A stretch of 26,195 nucleotides of DNA from a virus, in IMG/VR virus record IMGVR_UViG_3300032236_000168, positions 1 through 26,195 of that record, one strand, 5' to 3'. A program made the position numbers and the translations under genes. The notes beneath the pieces are model-generated. The model was not told the DNA's origin, made no database searches, and was given only the letters and a program-made list of their open reading frames with translations. How positions within the stretch are numbered: the stretch's first letter is position 1; every line of letters starts with the position of its first letter. This document shows, piece by piece, positions 1 to 14,633 of the stretch.

Positions 1-1631
1 ACAAGTGCATGCCCCCAGTTATCCAAGCTCCAAGTTTCTTGCACGGTATTTGCACCCGCGTGAACCGTGGTTCCCGACACCGTTTCTGAAGCGATATATT
101 GAGTTGGGGCAGGGCTGACTGTGTACCTACCCGTACCGCCTGATCCGCTATTAAACGCCGTCACAACAGTGGTGCCCGTTGTAGCTACACCGCCAATAGT
201 AACGGGGTATGTGATGACCGTCCCAATCGCGATGTTACCCGTTGATACGGCTGTGACGTTAAGGGTATTCCCAGCCCCACCTGACCCGTTTGAAATAGAT
301 GCTGTGCCCACAAAGTTCGCGCCAGATGCGCCAACACCATATCCCCCAACGCCATAAGGTCCAGCACCATACCCACCACCAGCGGTTGCCGGGCCTAATC
401 CTATGTAATAATAAAAATGGGCCAAATTCTGCGTTCCGTTAATAGTCGCAGAAGATGTGGTTTGGGAGTTATTTACAGTATATGTCCCGACCCCACCAGT
501 TGTGCCTGTCAATTGATTTGAGATTGTTGTTCCGGAAGATATCCCTGTTCCGGATATCAACATCCCTGCAAACAAAAATCCGGACGTTACAGTTGTAATA
601 GTAAGCGTGGTCCCGGAAATTGACCCAGAACCCGAAAACTGACCATTCATAAATGATGGGGTTGTCGTGGAGTTGGCCGCGACGGATGTATTAAACGTAA
701 ACGTATTCGCATCAACGACGGTTTGTACTGGGTAATCACCAAGTATCTTCACGCCGCCGATTGTGGTGGCGGTAAGGAAGGTGGCAGTGCTGCCTACAAT
801 AAACCCATGGTTATGGAATACGCATGTACAAATAGACGATCCGGCAGGGAGAGAGAAATATGGGACAACACCCGCTGATGCGGATGAGATTGTGGTAGAT
901 GATGTGTTTTGCGAATTGTTCACCAAATATGTGCCAACACCGCCTGAACCCGTGAGGATAGCCTCAACGTATGTGTTGGAAGATACGCCAGTACCTGTGA
1001 TGAAACTCCCAATCCCAATAGTACCGGATGACACTGCGGTAATGTTAAGGATTGTTCCAGCCCCACCAGAACCATTTGATATTGTCCCGGTTCCAGAAAA
1101 TGTAGAGCTGATTGTCTGAGTCGCATATGAACTTGCGTTAAACGTGTAAGTGTTTGAATCAACAAAAGTTATGTCGTACAGACCAGAAAGGATTAACCCG
1201 CCAACAGATATGGGTGTTTTAAGCCACAAAGTATCATACGAAGTGGCGTTGCGGTTTGTGTCTTTTACCGTTACCAAATATGACCCAGCGGTCGTTGTGA
1301 ATTTTGGCGCAACGTTTTGGTCGTCGTATTTTGGGCTAATGTTTGTGTAATACGTAGATGCTGGGTTGCTAGGGGTAAGGTTGGAAATATACCCAAGCGA
1401 GTTTGTCCCACCTACCCCAAGGTAGGTTTGCGTGTTCAGATCTTGCCACGCGTTCAAAGCGCGGACCTTTGATGGCATCACAGTGTTAATATACTTCGCC
1501 CACCCGCCTAATTTCTCAACCAGCCCATCACGGAAACGTATGAGGTTGCTGGCGGAAATCCCCGCCTCATTGAGGGTTGGGGTGTATTCCGCATTAACGC
1601 CGGGGGTAAACTTAATCGAACCAAATGGCAT
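1..1631 (-). CDS. Tail / DNA-stabilisation-like structural protein, C-terminus outside window
   Basis: The frame opens with ATG at 1631 and stays open for 543 codons to the window edge, so the C-terminal part is missing. A GAGG ribosome site lies 6 bases upstream, and the start is 3 bases after the stop of the adaptor gene. The first 45 residues ([17 protein letters not shown], then NLIRFRDGL and EKLGGW) match a pattern I recall from podovirus tail proteins that follow the adaptor, in the position of P22 gp10 (packaged-DNA stabilisation) or a tail nozzle. The role is inferred from this pattern and from position. The rest is Gly/Ser/Thr-rich beta sequence carrying five accessory modules: two at residues 110-172 and 268-322, three at 181-249, 335-398 and 443-512. 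A glycine/tyrosine linker ([12 protein letters not shown]) lies near residues 421-432. The modules make the protein longer than a minimal version would be. Confidence 0.75.
96..305 (-). repeat. Type A beta module, copy 3 of the left-end gene
   Basis: Residues about 443-512 of the left-end protein. It shows the order [20 protein letters not shown], then G-T-G-R-Y-T-V, as in the other type A copies, with an expanded centre around [12 protein letters not shown]. Confidence 0.6.
438..629 (-). repeat. Type A beta module, copy 2 of the left-end gene
   Basis: Residues about 335-398. This is the clearest copy: [15 protein letters not shown], then [12 protein letters not shown], then [18 protein letters not shown]. 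Confidence 0.75.
666..830 (-). repeat. Type B beta module, second copy in the left-end gene
   Basis: Residues about 268-322. The order is [13 protein letters not shown], a short variable loop, G-D-Y-P-V, then [10 protein letters not shown]. This matches other type B units with H-G-[FL]-x-x-G, a G-x-Y-x-V strand and a terminal N-T-F-T-[FY]. Confidence 0.5.
885..1091 (-). repeat. Type A beta module, copy 1 of the left-end gene
   Basis: Residues about 181-249: [15 protein letters not shown], then [12 protein letters not shown], then [18 protein letters not shown]. It aligns without large gaps to copy 2 in the same protein. Confidence 0.75.
1116..1304 (-). repeat. Type B-like beta module, first copy in the left-end gene
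   Basis: Residues about 110-172. The second half, [19 protein letters not shown] followed by [10 protein letters not shown], has the G-x-Y-x-[VI] strand and terminal N-T-[FY]-T-F of type B units. The first half is less similar. Confidence 0.45.
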
Positions 1632-1634
1632 GGC

Positions 1635-2336
1635 TTACCTCGTAGGAGAAGCCACTGCTGGCGGTGACATGGATGACCACGCGGACGCTTGGAATTTTTT
1701 GCGAAATTCTTCCACGGTAGCGGATTTAAGTAGGTTACCGTATTGCCCTTCCCACGATACGGACATTTGCGGGTTATCAGACTGCGACCCAAAGTTACGC
1801 ATCCAACCGGATGTGAAGATCATAGCAGCCGCCAAATATAGGTCTGGCAGGTAAGTGGAAAGGAAATTGGTACTATTTGTGGCGGAAAGAGGCGTAACAC
1901 GCTGCGTCCCCACAACCTCAAGGGTGTACCCATCATTTGGGTATGGCCCAAGGATGACGTTAAACTGGCTTAACATCGCGAACGTCACGGGTATGCCCGT
2001 AACGGATGGGGTGTTGTACACGGCATCCATATATTCTTTGGCAACGGGTGTTAAGGCTATGCGGGTTCCAGAAGTCGCTGTTGCCCCTGCGGGGGTAAGC
2101 GCGTTGATCTGTTGAACCGTCACAAATGTATTAGGGATCGTGACATTCCTGCTACCCGCTGTCGTAACTGTAGAAGTATCCGCCGTAACAGTATTTAATA
2201 GGTCAAGATCGCGCTGAATGCGCAATTCCGCGTAATCAATGATTTCAGGCAGGATGCCTTGAAAATTTGAATCGGAAGATTGGATGGCGATAAGGTTCGC
2301 CAATGAAGTGGTTAACGTCGCATAGGTAAGAGACAT
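1635..2336 (-). CDS. Head-tail connector / adaptor protein
   Basis: This 233-residue protein probably forms the ring that joins the portal to the tail. The N-terminal third is helical (LTTSLANLI, then IIDYAELRIQRDLDLL). A beta middle with FNVILGPYPNDGYTLEVVG follows, then a helix TYLPDLYLAAAMIFTSGWM and a C-terminal ...YGNLLKSATVEEFRKKF. I recall this arrangement from podovirus adaptors of the T7 gp11 / SU10 type; the assignment is by pattern, not by search. The ATG at 2336 is chosen over a TTG 12 bases upstream because GGAGC (the codons after that TTG) forms a good ribosome site for it. It sits between a 111-residue small protein and the tail/stabilisation-like gene, which starts 3 bases after its stop. 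Confidence 0.75.
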   Translation of the reverse strand: MSLTYATLTTSLANLIAIQSSDSNFQGILPEIIDYAELRIQRDLDLLNTVTADTSTVTTAGSRNVTIPNTFVTVQQINALTPAGATATSGTRIALTPVAKEYMDAVYNTPSVTGIPVTFAMLSQFNVILGPYPNDGYTLEVVGTQRVTPLSATNSTNFLSTYLPDLYLAAAMIFTSGWMRNFGSQSDNPQMSVSWEGQYGNLLKSATVEEFRKKFQASAWSSMSPPAVASPTR

Positions 2337-2364
2337 GATCGGCTCCAAAAGCTACCATTATATC

Positions 2365-2700
2365 TTACCCTAAAGTAAAGGGCGGCGGTAGGTTAGTATT
2401 TGATGTTGTTTTTTGTTTGTTTATGTTTTGTTCTAAGTTGGACTGCATTTGCTGGACTGTAGTGTCCCCAAGTGCGCCCGCGACCCAACTCGCGGCAATG
2501 TCCGGGGTAACCTGATCAAATGGTATGAAGTCTGGACCTTCAGGTTCACTTAATTCCGTAACCCCGGATATGGTTGAAAAGTATTGTCCGTCCCTAGCTG
2601 AATATTGCCAGTTAACGGTCATGATCACGTAACTATTGTACAAATTTGGGGATGGGATAGAACTCATCCCATTTATTTGCCAAGAGTACGTGATAGCCAT
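2365..2700 (-). CDS. Small conserved phage protein, 111 aa, tail region
   Basis: Begins MAITYSWQING and continues as beta-type sequence (NSYVIMTVNWQYSARDGQYF), then an acidic FIPFDQVTPDI segment and an amphipathic C-terminal helix ending in PPPFTLG. The pattern MAITY-x-W...V-x-W...F-x-x-F-D-Q-[LV]-T is one I recall from small phage proteins of unknown function near tail-fibre genes (I associate it with DUF7936, unverified). Its ATG is one base after the preceding gene's stop, so the two are probably translated together. No catalytic motif or membrane segment is visible. Confidence 0.75.
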   Translation of the reverse strand: MAITYSWQINGMSSIPSPNLYNSYVIMTVNWQYSARDGQYFSTISGVTELSEPEGPDFIPFDQVTPDIAASWVAGALGDTTVQQMQSNLEQNINKQKTTSNTNLPPPFTLG

Positions 2701-2701
2701 T

Positions 2702-2905
2702 TTAAGCCGCCGGGGTTTCTACAGCAGGTGCTTCTGGAGTGGCCGCAGGAGCAGCCGCAATCGCCGGGTTAGCTTCAATCTGCTTTGTCCCTTCCCCACG
2801 GATAAGCGTAATCAGCTCATGCACCGCTTCGTAAGGGAGTTTCGCAAGGCCAGTAAGGATTGCGTTTACTTCGTGGATAGCCAATTCAAGCGTAATTTTT
2901 GACAT
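2702..2905 (-). CDS. Small helical protein with Ala/Pro-rich tail, 67 aa
   Basis: Residues 1-40 (MSKITLELAIHEVNAILTGL, then PYEAVHELITLIRG) look like a beta strand plus two amphipathic helices. The last 25 residues are Ala/Pro/Glu rich and probably unstructured. GGAGG stands 9 bases before the ATG. Small proteins of this form (strand, helix, L-x-x-[LR]-P-Y-x-x-[AV]) are frequent in phage structural regions; the function is unknown to me. It lies between a membrane-anchored small protein and the 111-residue protein with minimal spacing. Confidence 0.75.
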   Translation of the reverse strand: MSKITLELAIHEVNAILTGLAKLPYEAVHELITLIRGEGTKQIEANPAIAAAPAATPEAPAVETPAA

Positions 2906-2926
2906 TTTTACCTCCGTTAAGGGACT

Positions 2927-3160: not shown

Positions 3161-3168
3161 GATGCACC

Positions 3169-4794
3169 TTAGAAGAATAAGAAAAATTGACCGGGGGTAA
3201 AAGGAACGTAGCTGATAACAATTATACCTTGGGAACCCGCCCCACTTGTTGCGCTTGCACTTTGGTTAACTGAACCGCCGCCTCCCGCTCCATATGATCC
3301 TCCTGAACCTCCGGGGGTTGCATTAGCGTTACCACCGCCGCCTCCCCCAGATCCATATGCCGGAGACGATTGCCACTCTGTGCCATTACCACCCGCGCCG
3401 CCCGCTACGGTTCCTGCTGCTCCGCCGTTTCCTGCATCTCCAGATCCACCCGCAGAATTTGCCCCCGAGGGGGATGCTAAGTTTGCACCGCTGTTCCCAG
3501 ATCCACTAGGTCCAGCAGCACCTCCACCGCCTGTAGCATTTTGCTTTGTTGAAGACCCTGTTACCGATCCACCTGCGCCACCGGAATACTTAGTCGTGCC
3601 AACGCCTGATGCTGCTGCGCCGCCAGCCCCTCCAGCCAAAGATGAAGCAGAAGACGCGGCTCCTGCCGATCCACCTTTTGCACCAACGGAAGAAGCAGCT
3701 AACGATGCCCCATTAAACCAAGTGTCTCCGCCAGAATTTCCCGATGCTGATGCGCCACTTGAAACTGTAACAGCAGCTCCGCCGATTCCCACTGCATAGG
3801 ATATACTTGCACCTAACGTCAGCGTTAAACTATTAATTTTAGAATACGCTCCGCCGCCGCCGCCTGTTGCATTTTGCGCCGCTGAATTACCATTAGCGCC
3901 TCCAGATCCACCGCCGCCAATAACTTCAATAGTGTTATTCGCAGAGTTCCAATCAGATGGGACAGTCCACGATGTACCCGCCGTAATAAAAATTGTTTTT
4001 GTAGGACTAGAGGAAATATATGTGATTACGATGAGGCCTTGTGAGCCAGCTCCAGATGTAGTTGATCCAGCACTCGCAACAGCAATACCTCCGCCGCCAC
4101 CACCATAGTTTCCACCAGCGAAACCAGTGGCGTTTGACCCACTACCGCCTCCGCCTGATCCATATAAGGAGCTAAATTCTGTTCCGTTTCCGCCAACGCT
4201 TCCAGAACCAGCAGCACCACCAAATCCTGCGTCACCTGACCCGCCAATTCCTTGTGCAGTTGTAGTTTGTGCAGGTGAAGAATTACCAGCGCCATTAGGC
4301 CCAGCTGCGCCACCTCCACCTGTTGATGTTTTGCTGCTAGATCCACTTGCATCACCAGCATTTCCACCGGAAAAAGCATTAGCAGGAGGAATAGAAGCGG
4401 ATGCTAATCCACCTGCGCCGCCGGATGCTGTCGCGTTTGTTCTCCCTATCCCGCCGCCGCCACCTTTTGCGCCAACAGATGATGCGGCAAGAGACGCACC
4501 ATTGAACCAAGTGTCACCACCGGAGTTACCATTTGCTGTAGTTGAACTTGTCGCTGCTGCTCCTCCAGCACCAACAGTATAAGAGATAGAAGCGCCAATT
4601 GTTAAAGACAGGCTTGTGATTTTTGAATAAGCACCACCGCCACCGCCGGAAGCAATTGAAATGCCCCCAGCCGACACGCCGCCTGATCCACCCCCACCAA
4701 TAACTTCAACACTACTTAACGAGAAAAAGTCGCTTGGGACTGTCCAAGTTCCAGAGCCAACAGTAGTGAGAAATACTTGTTTAGTAACAGCCAT
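3169..4794 (-). CDS. Glycine-rich tail fibre / adhesin-like protein with internal duplication
   Basis: This 541-residue protein has two similar halves. Each starts with a beta segment (KQVFLTT...GTWTVPSDF; KTIFITAGTSWTVPSDW), then VEVIGGGGSGG, long runs of G, A, S and N, AYSKI-x-SL-[ST]-L and SYAVG-like strands, DTWFNGASLAASSVGAKGG in both, and ends GAGSQG-[LI]-IVI-[ST]-Y. Gly-rich stretches of this kind occur in phage adhesins that fold as polyglycine-II bundles (phage S16 gp38 type), so a tip or receptor-binding role is a reasonable inference. The start at 4794 overlaps the previous stop as TAATG; an in-frame ATG 33 bases upstream would extend into the preceding gene with a Cys-rich start and is less likely. 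The C-terminus is hydrophobic (GQFFLFF). Confidence 0.75.
   Translation of the reverse strand: MAVTKQVFLTTVGSGTWTVPSDFFSLSSVEVIGGGGSGGVSAGGISIASGGGGGAYSKITSLSLTIGASISYTVGAGGAAATSSTTANGNSGGDTWFNGASLAASSVGAKGGGGGIGRTNATASGGAGGLASASIPPANAFSGGNAGDASGSSSKTSTGGGGAAGPNGAGNSSPAQTTTAQGIGGSGDAGFGGAAGSGSVGGNGTEFSSLYGSGGGGSGSNATGFAGGNYGGGGGGIAVASAGSTTSGAGSQGLIVITYISSSPTKTIFITAGTSWTVPSDWNSANNTIEVIGGGGSGGANGNSAAQNATGGGGGAYSKINSLTLTLGASISYAVGIGGAAVTVSSGASASGNSGGDTWFNGASLAASSVGAKGGSAGAASSASSLAGGAGGAAASGVGTTKYSGGAGGSVTGSSTKQNATGGGGAAGPSGSGNSGANLASPSGANSAGGSGDAGNGGAAGTVAGGAGGNGTEWQSSPAYGSGGGGGGNANATPGGSGGSYGAGGGGSVNQSASATSGAGSQGIIVISYVPFTPGQFFLFF
3190..3999 (-). repeat. Second half of tandem duplication in the glycine-rich gene
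   Basis: Runs from KTIFIT to GAGSQGIIVISYV. Both halves share the WTVPSD, VIGGGGSGG, DTWFNGASLAASSVGAKGG and GAGSQG anchor blocks in the same order, with varied glycine-rich filling. Confidence 0.8.
4009..4782 (-). repeat. First half of tandem duplication in the glycine-rich gene
   Basis: Runs from KQVFLTT to GAGSQGLIVITYI, with the same anchor blocks as the second half. The halves differ in loop lengths and codons, so the duplication is not recent. Confidence 0.8.
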
Positions 4795-5441
4795 TACGAT
4801 TGCGTCCCCACAGCAACGACATCCCAAGTTGATGAAGAGGCATTATAAATGCACCCTACATAAGTAGCTTTATTGGCGGTTGTTGTGGTCGGTAAAGATG
4901 CCCCAACAGCCCTAAATGCCCCTGAACCAGACGTTACCCATGTTAATGCGCGGGCAGTGCCGTTATCATTAATACGGAAAATCATGCGCTGACCATCTAA
5001 TGGTGATCCAGAATCCGCGTTAATCGTAAGGGAATTCGCAAGGGCGGTAAGGGAATACTGTTGGTAGCTTCCACTATTCCACGCGAGTGGGGAAGATACA
5101 GTCGTAGTTGTGGATGTGACTGCGATCAATGGGACGCCAAACGTGACACTGCCGTTCGCGTTCATCGTCATGGAGACAGCACCAGTCGTGCCGTTAATCG
5201 TGGTGGATGATACGGTCTGAGATTGATTCACCACATATGTGTATGGGAGCGTCGTAGCTTGCGTAATACTTTGAATTGTTGTTGCGGGTGAAGATGTTAC
5301 ACCCGTACCCGTGATTGTAGCGCCTACCGCCAACACGCCAGATGTAACGGCGGTGATTGTGAGGGTAGTGCCAGAAATTGAACCAGTCCCCACAAAGTAG
5401 GTTGATGGGTTTGTAATTTGGGATACTGCAAGTGTTGACAT
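4794..5441 (-). CDS. Tail fibre protein with C-terminal receptor-binding-like domain, 215 aa
   Basis: After MSTLAVSQITNPSTYFVG comes one type A module (residues about 18-85), then a short linker (GAVSMTMNANGSVTFGVPL). The C-terminal domain of about 100 residues contains QYSLTALANSLTINAD, GSPLDGQRMIFRINDNGTA, ALTW, GAFRAVGASLPTTTTA and a final CIYNASSSTWDVVAVG. I recall this last domain as a common fibre-tip domain in environmental phages, with D-G-Q-[RK]-[ML]-x-x-R-[IL]-x-D-N-G-T-A-R as its hallmark. GGGA stands 7 bases before the ATG. It follows another short fibre gene and overlaps the glycine-rich gene by TAATG. A role in receptor binding is inferred from family and position. Confidence 0.8.
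   Translation of the reverse strand: MSTLAVSQITNPSTYFVGTGSISGTTLTITAVTSGVLAVGATITGTGVTSSPATTIQSITQATTLPYTYVVNQSQTVSSTTINGTTGAVSMTMNANGSVTFGVPLIAVTSTTTTVSSPLAWNSGSYQQYSLTALANSLTINADSGSPLDGQRMIFRINDNGTARALTWVTSGSGAFRAVGASLPTTTTANKATYVGCIYNASSSTWDVVAVGTQS
5187..5390 (-). repeat. Type A beta module in the 215-residue fibre
   Basis: Residues about 18-85: [16 protein letters not shown], then ITGTGVTSSPATTI, then YTYVVNQSQTVSSTTING. It lies near the N-terminus, ahead of the receptor-binding-like domain. Confidence 0.75.
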
Positions 5442-5455
5442 GATTTATTCCCACA

Positions 5456-6067
5456 TTACGCTGTTGCGCCCTTGATGAGAGCAAAATTTATTACAAGTGC
5501 TTCAGACAGCGATCCTGCTGAAATGTTTGTTACCCTAATAGAAAATGAGCCTGTTGTGCCGATATACGCTGTTTCAATTCGGTAGTTTGACGGATTTACA
5601 GTAAGGTAAGCGCCTGAAACTATAATCATATCACCAGATGCGACCGCCGTGTTATTTACAACAAATGAAACGGACGCGCCCGCTGCCAAAGCAGCATTAT
5701 TCATCGTGATCTGACCGGAAAGCGTATTAAGCGTCACGGCTGTAGATTTGCTGGTCGTTTGAGTTACCGCACCACCCGCTCCAGTCGTATAACCAATCGC
5801 ACTCGTTGATGCCAAAATATTACCCGTGGTAGCGGGAAGCGTAAGTGTGTTTGTCCCCGCAGTAGCAGGAGCAACAATAGTTACTGCCCCACTTGTTGCC
5901 CCGTTAAATGCAGCTCCGCCAGCAATAGCGGGAGTTGTGAATGTGTTGCTTGTGAGGGTAGCGACCGTATCCGTTGTTGTGGGAAGCGTAAGCGTCCCCG
6001 ACCCAGCAACTGCCGGGGCAGTAAGGGTAACTTGACCAGATGTCGTACCTTTAAGAGAAATTGGCAT
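5456..6067 (-). CDS. Short tail fibre protein, 203 aa
   Basis: Contains two imperfect repeats of about 30 residues: TTSGQVTLTAPAVAGSGTL and ATSGAVTIVAPATAGTNTL, each followed by TLP-[TA]-TT. Units of the form T-S-G-x-V-T-[LI]-x-A-P-A-x-A-G-[ST]-x-T-L-T-L-P are common in phage fibre shafts. The C-terminal 90 residues are a beta-rich domain (GQITMNNAALAAGASVSFVV, then YIGTTGSFSIRVTNI) that may be a tip or trimerisation domain. The start at 6067 is chosen because the ATG lies just after the stop of the large fibre and has AGGA upstream; an in-frame ATG 63 bases further upstream would lie inside the fibre gene. It is the second of three consecutive fibre genes. Confidence 0.75.
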   Translation of the reverse strand: MPISLKGTTSGQVTLTAPAVAGSGTLTLPTTTDTVATLTSNTFTTPAIAGGAAFNGATSGAVTIVAPATAGTNTLTLPATTGNILASTSAIGYTTGAGGAVTQTTSKSTAVTLNTLSGQITMNNAALAAGASVSFVVNNTAVASGDMIIVSGAYLTVNPSNYRIETAYIGTTGSFSIRVTNISAGSLSEALVINFALIKGATA

Positions 6068-6068
6068 G

Positions 6069-8306
6069 TTAGCTGATCCTGTAAAGTGAATAAGCGCCCG
6101 CACCAGTTTTTCTTGCTCTGAAGCGGGCAAAACTGTTGGCTGTAGCGCCTGTTGCCATCGAACCTACAAGTGTCCAACCCGTATTCGTGAGAAGCGTGAT
6201 CGCAAACGCAGCAGTTGTAAAAACAATAAATTCCCACCCTGTTTCGTTTGGTGGGGTACCTAAAGCAGTTTCAACCGCCGAAGCGAGCGGTAACGTATAA
6301 GACGCTGTTGCTGTAGGTGTTCCAAGCAAAAACGGCGAGGTAATTTGTGCAGCAGTCAGTGTCGCGGTGTTTGTGGCCGTCTGCGTGGCTGTGTTGTACC
6401 AGTTTACGGATGTAGCTACACCTGCCGTGTTAAAAGTAGCCGCCGTCACAGCACCGTTATTACCTGTTTTAACAACAACAGAGTCCGTTGTGCCCGCGCC
6501 AGATGTTGATTGAAGCGTAAGGGTCGAACTAGTTGCTGTACCGCCAAGAACCAATGGCACCGTTAATGAAGTCGTAAGCGTTGGTGAGGCGGAATAAGAC
6601 GGGGCTGTATTTACACCACCAGAAATAAGAACCTGCCCTGTAGCAACGTCTGCAAGGCGTGAGAGGGCATTTGTTGCGGATGCATAAAGCAAATCACCAA
6701 CAGCGTATGTTGATTGGCCCGTACCGCCGTTAGCTGCGACAAGTGTACCAGCTACTGTAACCACACCTTGTGTAGCCGTATTTGGGGTTAACCCAGTCGT
6801 ACCAAACGATATAGATGTGACAGCAACTGATGTAGCCGCCGCCCAAGATGGCGCAGCACTTGTGTTGCCAATTAGAATTTGCCCGGTTGTTCCTGCGGCT
6901 GTTACGCCAAGCGCACTTGTTGTATTGCCATAGATAATACCGTTTGCCGTAAATGTACCAGCGCCAGTGCCGCCATTGGTGACTGTAAGCGTACCAGTGA
7001 CGTTCGTATTGGCTGTGCCTATATTTAGATTGCCAAATGACGGGGCCGATGTTTGACCAGCGAGAAGAGGCTGACCAGCAACACCGACAGCCGTCGATGC
7101 GAGAACGCCCGTTGTTGACGCATAAATGGCTCCCCACTGAGTCCAGTTAGAGGATTGACCAGTTCCGCCATTCCCGACAGGAAGGGTTCCAGATACGTGC
7201 GTTGTAAGACCAATCTTACCCCAAGAAGGGGCGGTGGATACGCCGCCAGATATCAGGGCATTGCCCGTAGCGACATCAGCGAGGCGTGAGAGGGCTGTTG
7301 TTGTGCTGGCGTATAGGATGTCCCCAATAGCGTAAGAGGCCTGTCCCGTGCCACCAGAAGTGGCTGCGAGGGCTGTTGCTAAAGAGAAGATACCAGCAGA
7401 AGAAATGGTAGCTGCGTCTGTCGTGCCATTATTGACCACAAAGTGGATGGCGTTTGCTGTCGTCGTACCAATCGCAAGGTCTGCGGATGTTGAATCTAAA
7501 TAAACAGTATTAGGGGCATTAAATGCACCAGTTCCGGAAAAACCGGATGAGTTCATTCCAAATTCGCCAAAATATGTGGATGCTGTGCCAGCGTCATTTG
7601 AAACAAGGTACGATGCAGACGCCGCAGCGTTGTTGCTCGAATTTTGAACAATTATTTGATTATAAGAAGCTACAGACGATTGGAACGACGCGAGAACGTT
7701 CGTATCTGGATAACTTAATGTTCCATATGAAACAGCCCCAGCACTTAACGATCCGGTTACTGTCCCCGTAGCAATTAAGAATGGGGATGTGACTGATGTG
7801 TTAAAGGTTGGGTTATCGACGATGGAGATTGTACCAACCGCCGTAATAGGGGATGTTGTGGATACGGTTGAACCAATTTTCGTGACTAAGTTTGTATTGG
7901 ACGAGCCAGTATTGACCCCGACACTTTGAACCGTACCAAAACCCGGTTCAACTTGCCAATATGGGTCCGCGCTTGGGCCGCCAGATAATAAGGCGTAACC
8001 AGCGGAAGATGCTGGCTGAAGGAAATTCCAATTGCCGACACCGCGATAAAGAATCCCGCCCTGCGTAGAGCCAAAAGCAACATCTAAAAGGGCGGATACT
8101 GACGTTGGTTGTGATACAGCGGTACCTTGAGTTGGGTTACCAATCAAATAACCTGCCGAAATTGTTGGGTAATTGTAATTTGCAAGGTTAGCGATAGCAC
8201 CCGTCGTAGACTGATACGACGTTCCGCTCTGCACAATCTCAATTGCTTCATTGCCGTTTAACGCCGTAGGGACGTTAGGGAGCATAAGGATGGTTTCATT
8301 GGCCAT
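6069..8306 (-). CDS. Major tail fibre protein, 745 aa
   Basis: The N-terminus (LPNVPTALNGNEAIEIVQSG, then GAIANLANYN) looks like the attachment domain of many phage fibres, and GSTQGGILYRGVGNWNFL follows near residue 80. The middle carries four repeats anchored by GGTG, such as GGTGQASYAIGDILYAS and GGTGQSTYAVGDLLYAS, with ALSRLADVATG and LISGGV-x-TAPS shared by two of them. The C-terminal domain has ATASYTLPLASAVETALG and GWEFIVFTTAAFAITLLTN. These GGTG shafts are typical of fibres or spikes in environmental podoviruses. CGGAG precedes the ATG, which follows the zinc-ribbon gene stop by 3 bases. The protein probably sits at the tail tip and contacts the host surface; the receptor cannot be told. 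Confidence 0.85.
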   Translation of the reverse strand: MANETILMLPNVPTALNGNEAIEIVQSGTSYQSTTGAIANLANYNYPTISAGYLIGNPTQGTAVSQPTSVSALLDVAFGSTQGGILYRGVGNWNFLQPASSAGYALLSGGPSADPYWQVEPGFGTVQSVGVNTGSSNTNLVTKIGSTVSTTSPITAVGTISIVDNPTFNTSVTSPFLIATGTVTGSLSAGAVSYGTLSYPDTNVLASFQSSVASYNQIIVQNSSNNAAASASYLVSNDAGTASTYFGEFGMNSSGFSGTGAFNAPNTVYLDSTSADLAIGTTTANAIHFVVNNGTTDAATISSAGIFSLATALAATSGGTGQASYAIGDILYASTTTALSRLADVATGNALISGGVSTAPSWGKIGLTTHVSGTLPVGNGGTGQSSNWTQWGAIYASTTGVLASTAVGVAGQPLLAGQTSAPSFGNLNIGTANTNVTGTLTVTNGGTGAGTFTANGIIYGNTTSALGVTAAGTTGQILIGNTSAAPSWAAATSVAVTSISFGTTGLTPNTATQGVVTVAGTLVAANGGTGQSTYAVGDLLYASATNALSRLADVATGQVLISGGVNTAPSYSASPTLTTSLTVPLVLGGTATSSTLTLQSTSGAGTTDSVVVKTGNNGAVTAATFNTAGVATSVNWYNTATQTATNTATLTAAQITSPFLLGTPTATASYTLPLASAVETALGTPPNETGWEFIVFTTAAFAITLLTNTGWTLVGSMATGATANSFARFRARKTGAGAYSLYRIS
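6585..7360 (-). repeat. Four GGTG-anchored tandem repeats in the main fibre
   Basis: Four units begin near 7355, 7175, 6985 and 6735 on the minus strand. Units 1 and 4 are most alike: G-D-[IL]-L-Y-A-S, ALSRLADVATG, LISGGV. Units 2 and 3 keep the GGTG and [YI]-x-S-T anchors only. Unit boundaries are approximate. Confidence 0.75.
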
Positions 8307-8309
8307 TTA

Positions 8310-8729: not shown

Positions 8730-8731
8730 GA

Positions 8732-9652
8732 TTATGTCCTGAAGTACCCGGACAACCCCGGCATAATGTAAAGAGGTACGTTTTCCGTATCCTGAGTAGC
8801 GGCTATATCATACGCCTGTGCAGCCTTTTGCTCAAGCAAATTAGACCTATCAGGAGAGTAAATATTAGCTAATCTAGCAGCTAACCCCGCACATGCCGCA
8901 TCAAGCCAACGATATGGGATATCAAGGGTTTGCGCCCCTGTTGTTTCCGCATCTTGCACCTGAATAACGCGGTAAAAGTTAAGCGTATAAACACCCGTTT
9001 GGTCAGGTACAGGCCACAATGTGATGGTTGGGTTAATCAAACGATCAAACCAGAACACAGTTGGTGGGGATTGAAGGTTTTTGTTAGGTGTTTGTGCGTA
9101 TTCCGTGCGCGAAATAGGCATAATTACGCGGTCAAATTGAGTTTCTTTACCAGAATTTGTCGTGATGTACGCGTCAAGCACCATAATGGTAGATTGCGCA
9201 TTACCCGTGATAGTGCCGCCGCTAATATACGTAGCCGTCACAGTAGAAGCGAATGATACAGATGTAGATGTCGCAGAGGTAACGGTATAAGTCCCATTAT
9301 ACTGAGTAGGATTAATGTTCGATACCGTTATAATTTGCCCTGCTGCATACGAATTGGTGCTGCTGTATGTCAAAGTAACGGTCGATCCATTTCCAGAAGC
9401 GCCCGTTACATTATCCATCTCTGCCGCAGAATAAGTGGTCACGCCCTGCACCAAGGGGACGCTTTGCAAATCTACCTTCCAAAGGTTTACCCCGCGATTA
9501 GACCACTCTGAGAACATAAGGTTCGCTTCAAACCTTGCGTCCTGCATGTGTTCTTGAAGGAGGGCGGTGCGGCGCACACCACAGCGGGCGAAGGCGTTGA
9601 GAACGACTTCACCTAAACTGGGGTTAAAATTGTATGTGCCGCTCGTTGTCAT
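8732..9652 (-). CDS. Connector / neck-like protein with inserted beta module, 306 aa
   Basis: The N-terminal 75 residues are helical (GEVVLNAFARCGV, then EANLMFSEWSNRGVNLWKVD). Residues about 82-150 are a Ser/Thr-rich type B module. The protein then resumes with STIMVLDAYITTN, FDRVIMPISRTEYAQTPN, PPTVFWFDRL, TITLWPVPDQTGVYTLNFYR and a C-terminal helical part (IPYRWLDAACAGLAARLA). The non-module parts look like the P22 gp4 / neck family, whose members bind below the portal; this is pattern recognition only. The ATG overlaps the previous stop as TAATG. The order L-W-P-x-P...Y-T-L and the closing helices parallel the 233-residue adaptor at 1635-2336, so the two may be distant relatives. Alternative: a tail-completion protein. 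Confidence 0.75.
   Translation of the reverse strand: MTTSGTYNFNPSLGEVVLNAFARCGVRRTALLQEHMQDARFEANLMFSEWSNRGVNLWKVDLQSVPLVQGVTTYSAAEMDNVTGASGNGSTVTLTYSSTNSYAAGQIITVSNINPTQYNGTYTVTSATSTSVSFASTVTATYISGGTITGNAQSTIMVLDAYITTNSGKETQFDRVIMPISRTEYAQTPNKNLQSPPTVFWFDRLINPTITLWPVPDQTGVYTLNFYRVIQVQDAETTGAQTLDIPYRWLDAACAGLAARLANIYSPDRSNLLEQKAAQAYDIAATQDTENVPLYIMPGLSGYFRT
9203..9409 (-). repeat. Type B beta module inserted in the connector-like protein
   Basis: Residues about 82-150: GNGSTVTLTYSSTNSYAAG, then ITVSNINP, YNGTYTVTSATSTSVSF, GGTITG. It sits between TTYSAAEMDN and STIMVLDAY, which read as adjacent strands of the host domain. Confidence 0.6.
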
Positions 9653-11676
9653 TAGGACATCGCTTCCTGCGCAATGATAGATGCACCAACGGTAAAGGTA
9701 CCAGACGATGGGGTCGTGATAGCGACCGTAAGGACGTCAGGAGCATCCCCCTGCACTGTGTTAAACAGCGGGAAGAAGTTTGTGAGGTCAAAGTTCTGCA
9801 ACCCACCAGCAGGAAGAGGGGTATTATACACCACTTCGCCGCCTGTGAGGGCTGTAGCCGAGACATCTCGTTCCACAAAGCTGTTCAAAGATCCAAGCGA
9901 ATACATCGTGTTAAACGTTGCGCCAGTCAAAGCGATTGGCGAATAGTACGTCGATGTGATCAATTCCAATGTGCAGTTGGCTGACGAATAAATGTTCAGC
10001 GTTTGCGGGAGGATCTGACCACGATCAATTTCACCAATGATGTAGTTTGCGCTCGCGCCCGGGGTAACAGCCATTGGATAAGGCAAGGAGGCGCTACCCA
10101 ACACGTTATCCACAACTGTCAATGCTGTGGTTGTGTTGGAGATAATGCGCCCAATTGGGCCAAGACCCTGAGTATACACAAGTGTACCGCCCGGCGTACC
10201 AGATCCGCTAGGAACCGTATACGTGAACGTCGTAGGCCCGGTAACCGTAATTTGGAACGTACCGTTTGGCGAACCAGTCGTAAGAGTACCGCCCGAGAAC
10301 GTAAGGTAACGCCCGGTTGTTAAGAAATGAGCGGATGATGTGGTTACCGTAACAACGTTTGCGGCTGCTGTGAAGCTGGATACGCCCTGAGTTACCCCAC
10401 GCGACCACACATACTTACCTGCCCACTGGTTAGCCGTCCAAGTGGCGCTAGAAGCAGTAATAACGCTACCAGCAGTCATGTACATGGTGGAGGAAGCCGC
10501 CGTCTGAGACACGTTTACGGTCCACGTAGAACCCGCTCCAGAGCCTGAGATATTGGCGGTGATGACAGTACCTTGCGCCACATTCGCCCCAGTCACAAGC
10601 TGCCCCACAGCCACTGTACCTGATGTGACCGTGCCAATGGTGAGCGTCGTGCCTGAAATGGAGGAAGTCGCAACCTGTGACGCAAGAACGGACGAGCTAG
10701 TGATGGCTGCGCCGCCAGTAGGGAGGGAACCGTTTGAGCCGGAATAGTTTGTATCTACGCCATACTCAAGCGTACCCATGGTGCGATAACGGATTGAGAG
10801 GAGGGGGTAACGAGTTGAAGACGTAGCTACAGTACGCGTTGGCGTATTCGCCGCCATCCCGTAACCGTATGTAAAGCCACGTTGCGTATCAATTTTGCCC
10901 TTCGCGAGAACCGAAACGCCGTAATGGGCCATCGTATAAGGCGACGAACCAGTCGTGATTGGGCCAATATTGCGCAATTCATAGCGAACCGGAATGTTAC
11001 CTGTGCGTGACCATGGCGTTGTCTGGCTGATTTTATTACCGATACCAACCTGATGAAGGACGTATGGTTCTCCGTTAATAACAACACCCCAACGAAGCAA
11101 ACCAGCGCCATACCAAGCGAACTCAATCCAGATCATCTGGATCTGACTCCAATTGATGGATGATTTGATACCCTGTGGGTCAGACCATTGATCAGATGTA
11201 ATTTTGGTGTCGAACGGCAATCCACCAACGTCAGAACGATAGACAACAGCCATTCCTGTTGGGTTGTTAGCCGTTGGGTCACCCTGTTCAAAGAAAATAC
11301 CGTTGCCGTCATCAAAGAAGCCAACACGCTGACGCTGGTTTGTGTAAGGCGCACCAAACACAAAGCCAGACGACATATAAATGGTTTTGCCCGGCTGATA
11401 GCGGATGTAAGGGCGTGTTTGACGAAGTGCGACATCTCCAGAAGCCGCCGTAACGGACATCGTGATACCACCAGAGGCAGAAACAGCAGATATGCTACCG
11501 CCGCCAGAAATGTATTGTTCCCAGCGCATTGGCTGGGTTCCGTATTCAAAGTCCGCTTCAAACAAATTCTGTACTTCAGATACTTCTGTGCGGCCCAAGT
11601 TATCACGCAAACGAGATGGGTACTCTGTTTGAATTGCTTGATCTACTGAGTTACCGGGGAAACTTAAACCAGACAT
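9652..11676 (-). CDS. Large virion protein with two accessory beta modules, 674 aa
   Basis: The N-terminal 330 residues form one domain: TEYPSRLRDNLGRTEVSEVQ, FEADFEYGTQPMRWEQYI, FDDGNGIFFEQ, INWSQIQMIWIEFAWYGAG and WGVVINGEPYVLHQV. This looks like a jelly-roll or lectin-like fold and is a pattern I recall from large phage virion proteins, but I cannot name the function. A type A module (residues 337-400) and a type B module (432-502) follow, then a C-terminal beta domain (DRGQILPQTLNIYSS, FVERDVSATALTGGEVVYN). The start at 11676 is preferred over an in-frame TTG at 11688 because GGAGC at 11682-11686 is well spaced for it. It lies between the 215-residue beta protein and the connector-like gene. 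It could be a fibre-attachment or baseplate-like protein. Confidence 0.75.
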   Translation of the reverse strand: MSGLSFPGNSVDQAIQTEYPSRLRDNLGRTEVSEVQNLFEADFEYGTQPMRWEQYISGGGSISAVSASGGITMSVTAASGDVALRQTRPYIRYQPGKTIYMSSGFVFGAPYTNQRQRVGFFDDGNGIFFEQGDPTANNPTGMAVVYRSDVGGLPFDTKITSDQWSDPQGIKSSINWSQIQMIWIEFAWYGAGLLRWGVVINGEPYVLHQVGIGNKISQTTPWSRTGNIPVRYELRNIGPITTGSSPYTMAHYGVSVLAKGKIDTQRGFTYGYGMAANTPTRTVATSSTRYPLLSIRYRTMGTLEYGVDTNYSGSNGSLPTGGAAITSSSVLASQVATSSISGTTLTIGTVTSGTVAVGQLVTGANVAQGTVITANISGSGAGSTWTVNVSQTAASSTMYMTAGSVITASSATWTANQWAGKYVWSRGVTQGVSSFTAAANVVTVTTSSAHFLTTGRYLTFSGGTLTTGSPNGTFQITVTGPTTFTYTVPSGSGTPGGTLVYTQGLGPIGRIISNTTTALTVVDNVLGSASLPYPMAVTPGASANYIIGEIDRGQILPQTLNIYSSANCTLELITSTYYSPIALTGATFNTMYSLGSLNSFVERDVSATALTGGEVVYNTPLPAGGLQNFDLTNFFPLFNTVQGDAPDVLTVAITTPSSGTFTVGASIIAQEAMS
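10171..10383 (-). repeat. Type B beta module in the 674-residue protein
   Basis: Residues about 432-502: VSSFTAAANVVTVTTSSAHF, TTGRYLTFSGG, NGTFQITVTGPTTFTYTV and GGTLVY. The N-G-T-[YF]-x-[VI]-T strand matches the copy in the connector-like protein. Confidence 0.6.
10477..10668 (-). repeat. Type A beta module in the 674-residue protein
   Basis: Residues about 337-400: [36 protein letters not shown], then STWTVNVSQTAASSTMYM. It directly precedes the type B module, separated by about 30 residues. Confidence 0.75.
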
Positions 11677-11688
11677 GGGTAGCTCCAA

Positions 11689-12336
11689 TTAGTACGGCGC
11701 AACGCCGAATTGCGTGAATATTGCGGTGACAGAACCCGTGCCGCTCGTAACGGTAACTTTAGCAAAAACAGGTGAATATTGGTAGCTGCTTTGAACAGAA
11801 GTTGTAGCATTAACCGCAGCAGAATCAGAGGAATTCAACCACGTAACAGAGTACGGGTTGACCGGATTTGTGGGGCTATTGGGATCTTGAAGGGTCTGTT
11901 GAATTGTGTACGTCACTGTACCAGAAACGGTACACTGAATGGCGGTTTGAGAGAGAGAAAACTCGTCAAAACGAACCCATGGGGATGACGCGATGTTGTT
12001 TGTTCCAACCGTAATTGCTGCTGCTGCAGCATTTTTCAATGTGATTGAAGTGACTGTCGCAAAATCGAGGTTTGAATAGAATGAAGTAGCGTTAGCACCC
12101 GCCAAGGCTTCAGTAAGAGGCGAACCATTAGCCGCCGTTCCAGTGATTGTGAATGTATTTGCCGCCTCATTACCCGTAGGGGTGAACAAAATACGACGCG
12201 GCGTATCAAGGGTCGCGACACCGCCAGAAGCAAGTGCTCCGTTGATTGTGAAGGATGATGTAGGTGTCTGAGTGAGGGCGATATTATTCGCACTAGCAGC
12301 CGCCAAAGAACCGACCGTTACTGTAATTGGGCGCAT
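11689..12336 (-). CDS. Beta-rich structural protein, 215 aa
   Basis: Begins MRPITVTVGSLAAASANNIA. Residues about 45-125 (RRILFTPTGNEAANTFTITG, NGSPLTEALAG, ATVTSITLKN, ITVGTNNI, PWVRFDEF) have the same strand order as residues 250-335 of the 410-residue protein upstream, so the two share a domain. The C-terminal 80 residues contain GTVTYTIQQTLQDPN, VTWLNSS and a final TAIFTQFGVAPY. AGGAAAG precedes the ATG at good spacing. It follows a 54-residue basic protein by 3 bases and is followed by the 674-residue protein. It is probably a virion component, perhaps head-surface or tail associated; no enzyme motif is present. Confidence 0.75.
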   Translation of the reverse strand: MRPITVTVGSLAAASANNIALTQTPTSSFTINGALASGGVATLDTPRRILFTPTGNEAANTFTITGTAANGSPLTEALAGANATSFYSNLDFATVTSITLKNAAAAAITVGTNNIASSPWVRFDEFSLSQTAIQCTVSGTVTYTIQQTLQDPNSPTNPVNPYSVTWLNSSDSAAVNATTSVQSSYQYSPVFAKVTVTSGTGSVTAIFTQFGVAPY

Positions 12337-12339
12337 TTT

Positions 12340-12504
12340 TTACTTTCCTTTCGTGCGGGCTACCGCTGCGTTATCTACCAAATTTGGGTATGGTCTGCCA
12401 GCAGCTCTTGCGTGTGCCTTCGCAGTTGTTTTTTGTTTCGCCGTCAAATGTTTATGATGCGCGTCTTTTTCAGCCGGGTGTTCCCAGAACGGTTTCTTAG
12501 ACAT
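12340..12504 (-). CDS. Small basic protein, 54 aa
   Basis: A short frame starting MSKKPFWEHPAEKDAHHKHL and containing AAGRPYPNLVDNAAVAR near the C-terminus. Its ATG overlaps the stop of the upstream gene as TAATG, which supports coupled translation. Its TAA is 3 bases before the next ATG, so it fits the operon exactly. The block A-x-A-G-R-P-Y-P-N-L-[VI]-D-N is one I recall from small phage proteins of unknown function in head/tail regions. It is rich in Lys, His and Ala, has no membrane segment, and is probably helical. Short length limits certainty. Confidence 0.75.
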   Translation of the reverse strand: MSKKPFWEHPAEKDAHHKHLTAKQKTTAKAHARAAGRPYPNLVDNAAVARTKGK

Positions 12505-12749
12505 TAACAGCCCCATTTCCTGAGGGATTTATTGATCCTGCTGTCAGGATCGTGAGCGTTATGATGGTTCGTCAGCTTTGAGCGCATACCCTCCATGCGG
12601 GCGCAAAACGATTTGTGACGAGAATTCCCTGTGTCTTTTGTTGGGGCTTTAAGAGTACCGCCAGTCTCAGAATGGTAAGATGAGCGGCCTTTGGCGTTTA
12701 ATCCGCCAGACTCCGACTTGCCTTCTTTTCTTGTCCATGCTGCTGTCAT
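12504..12749 (-). CDS. Small conserved basic protein (DUF6321-like), 81 aa
   Basis: The sequence carries WTRKEGKSESGGLNAKGRSS, then SFCARMEGMRSKL and a C-terminal DPDSRINKSLRKWGC. I recall exactly this set of blocks (E-G-K-x-x-x-G-G-L-N-x-K-G, K-S-F-C-A-R-M-x-G-M, D-P-x-S-R-I-N-K-S-L-R-K-W-x-C) from a small protein family in many marine and freshwater tailed phages, which I believe is DUF6321; this was not checked. It has two cysteines and is strongly basic, so nucleic-acid binding is possible but unproven. GAGG stands 8 bases before the ATG. It is the first gene after a strong terminator, and its stop overlaps the next start. Confidence 0.85.
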   Translation of the reverse strand: MTAAWTRKEGKSESGGLNAKGRSSYHSETGGTLKAPTKDTGNSRHKSFCARMEGMRSKLTNHHNAHDPDSRINKSLRKWGC

Positions 12750-12761
12750 ATCAATCCCTCG

Positions 12762-12790
12762 AAAAAAGAAGGGGGGATTTCTCCCCCCTC
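12762..12790 (-). terminator. Rho-independent terminator after the head operon
   Basis: On the minus strand an 8-bp stem (AGGGGGGA / TCCCCCCT) closes a GAAA tetraloop and is followed by TCTTTTTTC. The hairpin starts 6 bases after the stop of the frame ending at 12795, and the next ATG (12749) is 13 bases further on. The stem would also form on the other strand, but without a T-tract. Confidence 0.88.
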
Positions 12791-12794
12791 TTAG

Positions 12795-13007
12795 TCAATG
12801 CATCTTCTTCAGCGTCTTCGCGAGACTTGCGCGTTTAGCAAGCAAGGGGTTGCTGCTGTGCGCTGCTTTTTCCAGTTTTTTGGCGGGGATTTTCTCCCCT
12901 TCTGGAACGTGAAGCTGCCTATGTAGTGCGCCCGGGTGCTTTATCGCACCCTGTATCCACTTTGGACTACCACCTGCTGAGTAACCGCAGTCAGTCTTCC
13001 ACCGAGT
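12795..13007 (-). CDS. Conserved phage small protein frame lacking a start codon (70 codons)
   Basis: The frame is open from just after a TAG (13008-13010) to TGA at 12795. It reads ...CGYSAGGSPKWIQGAIKHPG, ALHRQLHVPEGEKIPAKKLE, then NPLLAKRASLAKTLKKMH. I recall this as a very common small phage protein (W-I-Q-x-A-I-K-x-P-G-A-L-H...V-P-E-G-x-K-I-P-x-K-K-L...A-x-L-A-x-T-L-K). No ATG, GTG or TTG occurs in frame before the conserved part. The frame is +1 relative to the histidine-rich gene, whose last five codons it overlaps, so it could be expressed by a +1 shift from that gene, by a non-canonical start, or the start may be lost through mutation or sequence error. The coordinates give the open frame, not a proven start. 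Confidence 0.6.
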   Translation of the reverse strand, partial: TRWKTDCGYSAGGSPKWIQGAIKHPGALHRQLHVPEGEKIPAKKLEKAAHSSNPLLAKRASLAKTLKKMH

Positions 13008-13389
13008 CTACGTCGCGGCCCGCTGGCGTCTTAACGTGACGAGCTGCCGAGAACGGGTTCATTTCAGCGCCGACCTTGCCGCCATGTTTACGTGCCGGGC
13101 GGTCAAGACGGTGATGAGCCTTATGCCCATGCATCTCGACTTCCTTGTGGCCATGGTGGACTTTTCCGCCGCGCTTCTTCTTCATCGCTTCCTTAACAGT
13201 AGGCGAATTTGCACCAGCGTAAACGTCGTGCGGTGCCTCGTCATGAGCAACGTCGCCTTCATGAGCAACGTTACCGACATGGCCGCCGTGTTTACGGTGG
13301 GCGCGGTGGTGGTGGCTTAGATCGTGGTGATCCATATGCCCTTTGTGATGCTGCGCAGCAGTATCACCGTGATGGTGCTTACCCTTCAT
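12991..13389 (-). CDS. Histidine-rich protein with K-x-G-G motifs, 132 aa
   Basis: About 26 of 132 residues are histidine, concentrated in the first half (KGKHHHGD, AQHHKGHMDHH, SHHHRAHRKHGGHV) and again near residues 75-95. Three K-x-G-G units occur (KHGGHV, KRGGKV, KHGGKV), as in the 592-residue protein of the same late region. The C-terminal part (RLDRPARKHGGKVGAEMNPF, SAARHV) resembles a pattern I recall from phage proteins of unknown function in the capsid region. The His clusters suggest metal binding, which is inference. AAGGA stands upstream of the ATG, and the gene begins 11 bases after the preceding stop. The stop at 12991 overlaps a conserved frame in +1. Confidence 0.75.
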   Translation of the reverse strand: MKGKHHHGDTAAQHHKGHMDHHDLSHHHRAHRKHGGHVGNVAHEGDVAHDEAPHDVYAGANSPTVKEAMKKKRGGKVHHGHKEVEMHGHKAHHRLDRPARKHGGKVGAEMNPFSAARHVKTPAGRDVDSVED

Positions 13390-13400
13390 AGCTTAGTTCC

Positions 13401-14633
13401 TTATACTTGGGTTACGCCGAACAGACCTGTGGTCGTCGTGCCGATATTATACGCTTGCGGAGACTGCGTTACGATGAGGCGGCGGGAGCCGTTAGAAGCC
13501 GTCTGCAATGCATACGTGCCGCGAACGTCGCCAGTCGTTGTCGTAGCGTAGGTAGTAACAGCCGCCGTAAACCCGGTATTTGCCGTCACAACTGTCGCAG
13601 GATAGTTGATCAAGAGTTCACCAAAGTTGTCCGCACGGATAGGAAGCCCGAAAATATCGGTCGTTCCAACCGAGTAAGTAACCGTATCTGTCACGCTAGG
13701 CGTTACAGATGTGATATACTTAAACGCTTTCTTTCCGTTCACAGCTGTTCCTGAAGTGGAACCAGTTGTGAGGGAAATCACTTCAGACATCGGATAGCCA
13801 TAAATATCATAGCCAGCGACTGTAAATGTGATCGAAGCGGTCGGGTTAGCGGATGTCGGCGTAATGCTAACAGCGCGAGCGATGAGGCTCTGTGGGTTCC
13901 ACAACTGGACCGTACCAGCTTGACCAAAAGCAATACGCGACTGCGAAGTGGCAGGAACGGTGCTTGTGCCAAGTGCAGCATTGATCGTAATTGGCGAACC
14001 ACTTGTGCCAGCGGCGAATGAGTTGCTTACGTAATAAGCACCCGTTCCGCCAGTAGCAGAATTGCCGTTTGAGACGTTAAGCGATGGAGCATAGCCAGTG
14101 ATATAAGTACCAGCCGTGACGCCCGTGCCGCTAATAACCATACCAACCGCGAGCGGAGCATACGATGCCGTGCTAACGATGAGGATGTTACCAGCCGTGC
14201 CGCTTGTGCCGTTCGAAACATAACCCGTGACCGAAGTGTAACCGTCAATAGCCAGAAGGCCAGTGACAGCAGCACCCGTATCAGCGCGGTTGATTGAAAC
14301 AGCGGTAGCAACACCTGTCGTTGTCGAAGAAGACGAGACAAGAATTACTGGCGTAGAGGCGGTAGTAGCCAACGCAGCCGAAATCGCTGTAGCACTCAAC
14401 GCATAAGGAACCACGTTCAGTGTTTGTACGTTCTGAACGGAGAAACCAGCCGTGACATTACCGAAGTTCTGTCCCGGTTCGTAGCTGTAAGGCCAACGCT
14501 GATCAAGAAGAGCCACGCCGTTGTAAAACAACGACGGGCCAGCTTCCGGATTATAGTCCGTCATTGTCGGACTATTCGGGTTGGTGTTCTGCCCAAAGGA
14601 TACTAATGGGCCGGAGAATGCTGAAATAGACAT
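13401..14633 (-). CDS. Structural protein downstream of capsid gene, 410 aa
   Basis: The N-terminal 90 residues are specific (MTDYNPEAGPSLFYNGVALL, DQRWPYSYEPGQ). Residues 92-138 are beta sequence, and a type A module covers about 140-218. Residues 250-335 form a domain also found in the 215-residue protein at 11689-12336 (ARAVSITPTSANPTASITFT, YGYPMSEVISL, GKKAFKYITSVTPS, YSVGTTDIFGLPIRAD). The final 60 residues contain GDVRGTYALQTAS, then RRLIVTQSPQAYN. It follows the capsid gene with a good AGGAG site, so it is probably an abundant virion protein such as a head fibre, head-surface or minor capsid protein. No enzyme motif is seen. Confidence 0.8.
   Translation of the reverse strand: MSISAFSGPLVSFGQNTNPNSPTMTDYNPEAGPSLFYNGVALLDQRWPYSYEPGQNFGNVTAGFSVQNVQTLNVVPYALSATAISAALATTASTPVILVSSSSTTTGVATAVSINRADTGAAVTGLLAIDGYTSVTGYVSNGTSGTAGNILIVSTASYAPLAVGMVISGTGVTAGTYITGYAPSLNVSNGNSATGGTGAYYVSNSFAAGTSGSPITINAALGTSTVPATSQSRIAFGQAGTVQLWNPQSLIARAVSITPTSANPTASITFTVAGYDIYGYPMSEVISLTTGSTSGTAVNGKKAFKYITSVTPSVTDTVTYSVGTTDIFGLPIRADNFGELLINYPATVVTANTGFTAAVTTYATTTTGDVRGTYALQTASNGSRRLIVTQSPQAYNIGTTTTGLFGVTQV
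13980..14216 (-). repeat. Type A-like beta module in the 410-residue protein
   Basis: Residues about 140-218: GTSGTAGNILIVSTASYAPL, AVGMVISGTGVTAGTYITGY, then GGTGAYYVSNSFAAGTSGS. It keeps the A-V-G-x-x-I-S-G-T-G-V-x-x-G-T core and G-T-G-x-Y-x-V strand with a longer loop between. Confidence 0.65.

Follow-up and report, generated by a model that had tools for sequence, protein, structure and literature searches.

Here we show that a small protein module, hereafter type A, recurs in six related copies (c1 to c6) in four virion genes of an uncultured virus, IMG/VR record IMGVR_UViG_3300032236_000168 (the window, meaning the whole stretch of 26,195 bases that was analysed, which encodes head and tail proteins on its minus strand). 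The module is widespread, its carriers include both head and tail proteins, and at two places, c2 and c5, it is present or absent in frame between relatives. The explanation that we favour, with moderate confidence, is that type A is a portable domain, predicted to be a small beta barrel, that is taken up in frame and serves as a nearly uncharged spacer or decoration.

Six related copies in four virion genes

Each of the six copies is encoded in frame on the minus strand, within one of four open reading frames (ORFs) and at the place where a sequence-only reading of this DNA had put it, and the limits given by a hidden Markov model (HMM) are mostly slightly wider than those first proposed. Three copies fall in the gene at 3-1631, which is cut by the end of the contig (its product has 871 amino acids in the sister phage introduced below) and which is identified later, on profile matches, as that of the tail nozzle protein: c1 at 879-1094 (residues 180-251), c2 at 432-632 and c3 at 69-308 (residues 442-521). 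The copy c4 (5187-5390) stands near the N-terminus of a probable tail or fibre protein (gene 4794-5441), whose PHROG matches are phrog_3030, of unknown function (1.9e-15), and the tail assembly family phrog_19976 (0.0029). The copy c5 (10474-10671) is in a large virion structural protein (gene 9652-11688; phrog_1645, 5.6e-62). The diverged c6 (13974-14231) is in the product of the gene at 13401-14633, directly downstream of the gene at 14646-15563, labelled capsid from a weak NCBIfam match (3.4e-4) and gene order; homologues of these two genes adjoin in related loci too.

A profile of the six copies, run against the 329 stop-to-stop frames of at least 40 residues in the window, returned exactly these six, the next match scoring 3.7 bits. 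When each copy was left out in turn, the profile still recovered it, with 62.7, 52.6, 27.4, 43.5 and 35.8 bits for c1 to c5 and 16.8 bits for c6 (E 1e-4, the weakest), the left-out row having taken part in the alignment of the columns. Shuffled ORFs (50 x 329) gave a best score per run of 10.2-12.7 bits, with 10.2 in the c6 run, and reversed ORFs gave 4.4-5.6 bits. The strong divergence of the copies at the codon level, remarked on in the earlier reading, is borne out by pairwise nucleotide identities of 57-66%.

Whole modules present or absent between relatives

The sister phage (virus record G001, 58.9 kb) carries five of the six copies. Its capsid protein is identical to that of the window (305/305), its c5 and c6 carriers are 99.3% and 98.5% identical and its nozzle protein is 96.6% identical over the aligned residues (95.3% of nucleotides); some genes of the fibre region are strongly different. 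The copy lacking in G001 is c2: where the window has 219 nt (423-641) the sister has 6 nt, in frame and with clean ends. Because the nozzle homologues of G003 and MW202675 are also without c2, its gain in the lineage of the window is the simpler reading. As to the donor, an exact 23-base piece of the insert was found in no contig of the viral collection. The copy c5, shared by the window and G001, is missing from the other four of five end-to-end homologues (62-66% identity), three of which were aligned.

Among the remaining copies, c1 (72/72 residues) and c4 (68/68) are identical in G001, and c3 agrees at 77 of 80 residues. Among 58 homologues, fragments included, the HMM found c6 in 38. Of the other 20, five were inspected, and each continues through this stretch of the alignment in a diverged form; at least one of these 20, a fragment, breaks off before reaching c6. 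The copy c6 thus looks fixed. The modules had been described as sitting between ordinary domains, which is right for c2 and c5, whose homologues are intact without them; c1, c2 and c3 form an array with other small beta modules. The proposal that modules are swapped among virion proteins gains support from this presence and absence of whole modules at c2 and c5 and from the many families of carriers.

Distribution of the module and its carriers

Scanning IMG/VR with the six-copy alignment matched at least 598 stretches. Relatives were encoded by 312 of them, and the top 80 of these loci held 207 type A domains in 124 ORFs, 66 of which hold two to four. The length of the module ranges from 64 to 86 residues. 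A scan of bacterial genome contigs, with seven closely related modules as query, gave 72 loci with 130 domains in 85 ORFs. No family in Pfam or NCBIfam describes the module, as judged from the window carriers and 49 module sequences. The profiles of PHROG 21413 (unknown function) and PHROG 38233 (tail fiber protein) contain it and match 48 and 46 of the 49 sequences, respectively; these are clusters of whole proteins, whereas the family described here is one of domains.

In a Pfam scan at E 0.001 of 76 of the 85 bacterial-contig ORFs (those up to 1450 residues), the families matched were DUF3383, neck terminator and Baseplate_J (seven carriers each), XM1 gp53 minor capsid (three) and, more rarely, cement (two), lambda D, capsid and adaptor (one each). 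Eight bacterial-contig carriers match the tail sheath family PHROG 205, and the DUF3383 carriers are probably tail sheath proteins. Since many of these carriers match phage families, a prophage origin is likely for them; ten more bacterial-contig carriers, scanned singly, gave few matches. The 124 viral ORFs were reduced to 34 non-redundant ones and, after one longer than 1500 residues was dropped, the 33 scanned matched the SU10 adaptor (seven), XM1 gp53 (four), cement (three) and three other families once each. No replication enzyme appears among the Pfam families of the 76 bacterial-contig and 33 viral carriers, and a head maturation protease is found among the PHROG families of the carriers, 25 of 42 families being listed. 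The module lies inside the family match in one sheath protein (L180) and beside the main matched stretch in others.

A tblastn search with one module found none in named phages, a result in which the low-complexity filter may mask matches; a longer query worked. Two entries of the BFVD assigned to the giant virus Indivirus ILV1 (A0A1V0SCQ2 and A0A1V0SDM6_2) match the module model with 55% and 39% identity, and could reflect transfer or misbinned phage sequence.

A predicted small beta barrel

The sequence-only reading had assigned no fold to the module, and one can now be proposed. The AlphaFold2 model of c2, made from 49 sequences, has a mean predicted local distance difference test score (pLDDT) of 95.6 and a predicted template modelling score of 0.82. 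Foldseek against the PDB ranked 8eci_1 of Arthrobacter phage Bridgette first (E 0.046, probability 1.00, 27% identity), with chains of UBA1 and F1-ATPase among the rows that follow. In VIA-align the highest Z values were those of IF2 (7.6), eEFSec (7.3) and the Pyrococcus protein 1xe1 (7.1), and then of 8eci_1 (7.0), eEF1A (7.0) and EF-Tu (6.8), the top rows aligning 65-70 of the 72 residues; according to a warning of the tool, values below 8 may be due to a common arrangement. Compared with predicted viral proteins, the model gave 18 matches at E <= 0.001. The carrier of c6 was predicted separately, from its own alignment of 42 sequences, and its residues 132-222 match 8eci_1 best (Z 5.9), followed by eEF1A, EF-Pyl, K1 lyase, SelB and EF-Tu (Z 4.9-5.5 for eEF1A, EF-Pyl, SelB and EF-Tu). 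The models of c2 and c6 have the same structural relatives, and differing folds were not seen for these two copies.

On these models we propose that type A is a small beta barrel like domain II of EF-Tu and IF2, the FCCH domain of UBA1 and the N-terminal barrel of F1-ATPase, which we take to form one RIFT class. The barrel topology of this class, that of EF-Tu domain II, is seen in both the c2 and c6 models, and the c2 model has the same arrangement over those 65-70 of 72 residues. Type A differs from RIFT-type barrels in being nearly uncharged and mobile between virion proteins, and has no detected sequence relation to them. Pfam E1_FCCH (PF16190) was matched neither by the window carriers at the module nor among the families of the 49 modules. 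Smug et al. have noted RIFT-related domains in phage tail and neck proteins (PMC10684548).

The chain 8eci_1, best for c2 in Foldseek and for c6 in VIA-align, with 19-27% identity, is presumably the capsid cement protein of Bridgette. It is a protein of 124 residues, in contrast to the inserted module described here, and the module profile does not reach it by sequence. No solved structure was matched by sequence at E <= 1 by the carriers of c5 and c6. Phage immunoglobulin-like (Ig-like) domains would, on these predictions, belong to a different fold class. No Ig-family profile matched type A above chance (one Big_6 match at E 0.063 among the 49), and Ig folds are not singled out in the Foldseek and VIA-align lists of c2, absence from such a list excluding nothing.

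The tail nozzle protein

The family profile of the gene carrying c1, c2 and c3 matches the tail chain of Pa223 (9nwi_Y, E 3.5e-22) and the nozzle protein of VP1 (8zkm/8zkk, 1.1e-16), and by these matches the gene at 3-1631 is that of a tail nozzle protein. On the Pa223 chain, the inserted part of the profile falls at the junction between residues 103 and 104. In the window a Gly/Tyr-rich segment separates the array that has c1 and c2, ahead of it, from c3, behind it; in locus L004 the insert splits this segment; and in phiM5, MJing1 and H47 (MW202711) the nozzle region has no insert, the phiM5 homologue being noted as detected in the particle proteome. Small barrels of a second kind, called type B in this protein by eye, stand beside type A, at 1098-1304 and 648-872 on the minus strand (both approximate, from alignments). 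The order of barrels is B-A-B-A in G001 and B-A-B-A-A in the window. The nozzle protein of L004 has one type-B-like and one type A barrel, and that of MW202675 has other small domains, with neither c1 nor c2 and with a type-B-like domain at the place of c3, these type-B-like domains being likewise recognised by eye.

In the nozzle protein of phage SU10, four Ig-like domains sit as inserts between propeller blades 2 and 3. They straighten as the genome is released, and the nozzle then lengthens the tail by 277 angstroms (PMC9509320). Besides its Ig-like nozzle domains SU10 has an Ig-like gene (L251:8535-8933) just after the major head gene, and the window has c1 to c3 and c6 at these places. 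A direct homology with the SU10 nozzle protein was considered and gave a weak match only. By analogy with the Ig-like domains of the SU10 nozzle, c1 to c3 and the small beta modules beside them would build an external arm, and the array may act as those domains do. A more speculative and, in our opinion, doubtful extension is that this arm consists of a variable number of interchangeable barrels, that the gain or loss of a single barrel between near-identical phages sets the reach of the DNA-ejection nozzle, and that the same uncharged barrel decorates head, sheath, neck and baseplate proteins.

Function and origin of the module

The six copies contain 3 charged residues in 439, compared with 128 in 1407 in the rest of the four proteins (Fisher p 2.7e-12), and the same comparison within single ORFs shows the modules to be the less charged part in 89 of 89 viral and 82 of 84 bacterial-contig ORFs. 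Gly, Leu, Ile, Thr and Tyr occupy most of the conserved positions, and the modules have almost no His, Cys, Trp or charged residues. A catalytic or metal site was considered and rejected, there being no conserved charged, His or Cys residue. The near-zero charge and the kinds of residue conserved favour a passive spacer or decoration over a catalytic or ionic binding site; binding of neutral glycans may be compatible with this composition.

Under the explanation that we favour, phages would acquire the whole module in frame, in loops and linkers of virion proteins that also exist without it, and the module would act as a nearly uncharged structural spacer or decoration, with weak, non-ionic surface contacts as a possible further benefit. 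For c6, in the capsid-adjacent protein, the counterpart would be the cement protein of Bridgette, with c6 as a decoration barrel.

Several observations weigh against this picture. Not every copy comes and goes, c1 and c4 being identical in both sisters and c6 apparently fixed. Bacterial-contig carriers also match families that are not typical of virions (cellulase, Big_1, HYR, Laminin_G_3 and others, one each of the 76), and the module may occur in bacterial extracellular proteins too. The fold rests on predictions, because the module profile has no sequence match to any solved structure (0 in the PDB at E <= 10), no PDB match of the c2 model reached E 0.001 or Z 8, the model of the c6 carrier is moderate (mean pLDDT 69.6), and the unrelated PirA and nucleoplasmin came first, at E 0.2 or worse, when Foldseek was run on that model as a whole. 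In the nozzle protein, the N-terminal piece of the Pa223 match is weak (19.4 bits), the inserts fall in one short region and not at a single point, which counts slightly, and the placing of the window insert where SU10 has its nozzle domains comes from a weak alignment (probability 28.7%).

The modules could instead serve adhesion, binding glycans or the host surface and being exchanged to adjust attachment, a role that has been proposed for Ig-like domains of phages; to this possibility we give a limited but real chance. It is in keeping with the carriage of modules by head, sheath, baseplate and nozzle proteins, with the structural likeness (Z 5.2) of the c6 model to a portion of 7w1c, the K1 capsule lyase, and with the epithelial binding conferred by Ig-like adhesins of gut phages (PMC13370021). 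The composition described above, with its Gly, Thr, Leu, Ile and Tyr positions and scarcely any charged, His, Cys or Trp residues, speaks against it, and no ligand patch was identified, as judged from the sequence. Of the suggestion that type A modules are surface or adhesion modules swapped among proteins, the swapping is supported; for the adhesion part, the low charge and the lack of conserved polar binding residues fit a spacer or decoration at least as well.

It is unlikely, in our judgement, that the modules are cement, clamping neighbouring virion subunits and stabilising the particle. In favour of it, 8eci_1 is the best match of c2 in Foldseek and of c6 in VIA-align, dimeric cement proteins surround the penton in the capsid of Bridgette (PMC13033339), and cement, lambda D and minor capsid proteins are found among the carriers. 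Against it, relatives exist that lack c2 or c5, and sheath, neck and baseplate proteins account for many of the carriers.

With regard to the origin of the copies, their duplication inside the window genome is very improbable. The modules of other phages outscored the best match within the phage for every copy, in 53 of 424, 29 of 376, 1 of 416, 5 of 379, 147 of 378 and 15 of 347 external rows for c1 to c6, respectively; these rows are redundant and were fetched by similarity to these same modules, and those for c6 include orthologues. The preference for foreign modules, which further supports swapping, is clear for c1, c2 and c5 and marginal for c3 and c4, to which another window copy comes almost as near as the best foreign modules do, and the nucleotide identities of 57-66% also speak against duplication. 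These comparisons support, and do not prove, separate acquisition of the copies. That the resemblance is a low-complexity convergence of Thr/Gly/Ser-rich beta sequence is scarcely credible: these three residues do make up 53.3% of the six copies, but the scores of shuffled ORFs of the same composition peaked at 12.7 bits and those of reversed ORFs at 5.6, compared with 16.8-62.7 for the held-out copies, controls which speak against convergence for c1 to c5, and c2 and c6 share structural relatives.

The mobile surface domains best known in phages have Ig-like folds. When type A was compared with them, it too was found to be facultative and to occur in several classes of virion protein, and the likeness to phage Ig-like domains, which are likewise facultative modules in many virion proteins, extends to behaviour and not to sequence. 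Type A is best filed as a new family of a known kind, that of phage Ig-like and RIFT-type domains. No description of the family was found in the open PMC literature by title and start of abstract, in searches most of which were not aimed at the module by name. Type A adds another widespread, unnamed and nearly uncharged domain common to head and tail proteins. The natural pairs with and without the module make its function directly testable, and a model at the level of Pfam would bring annotation to many hypothetical virion proteins and show where particles tolerate insertions.

Other modules and genes of the window

Type B barrels are also found outside the nozzle protein. One lies in the c5 protein at 10174-10407 on the minus strand (approximate; E1_FCCH at E 0.0011 and 8.1e-5, below the Pfam cut-off score) and another, placed from alignments with relatives, is inserted in the adaptor-like gene 8732-9652 at 9203-9412, also on the minus strand (approximate). 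In the product of the latter gene, 67 of 306 residues are unmatched in G001, and in all 22 relatives, G001 included, the match span leaves no room for the module (672-717 nt versus 918), five relatives having been aligned. E1_FCCH matches weakly in three of the five type B stretches, and these E1_FCCH-like barrels are small beta modules that neighbour type A and of which one is likewise present or absent between relatives. The uniting of type A and type B in one sequence family was tried and is unsupported (hhalign probability 0.35%). One of the five type B stretches matches Pfam End_beta_barrel, the barrel domain of phage endosialidases, at E 4e-6.

The terminase gene of the window matches TIGR01630, its best-ranked named phages being Roseobacter CRP-902 and CRP-901 (46-47% identity), and two window genes match the SU10 adaptor family. 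The N-terminal part of the c5 carrier (gene 9652-11688) is found in cyanophages and HMO-2011 as well. The genes at 5456-6130 and 3169-4827 have protein identities to G001 of merely 43% and 64% among nearly identical neighbours, and from this pattern are likely to mark a spot of fibre exchange. The product of the second of them, 3169-4827, is glycine-rich and by eye resembles two repeated halves.

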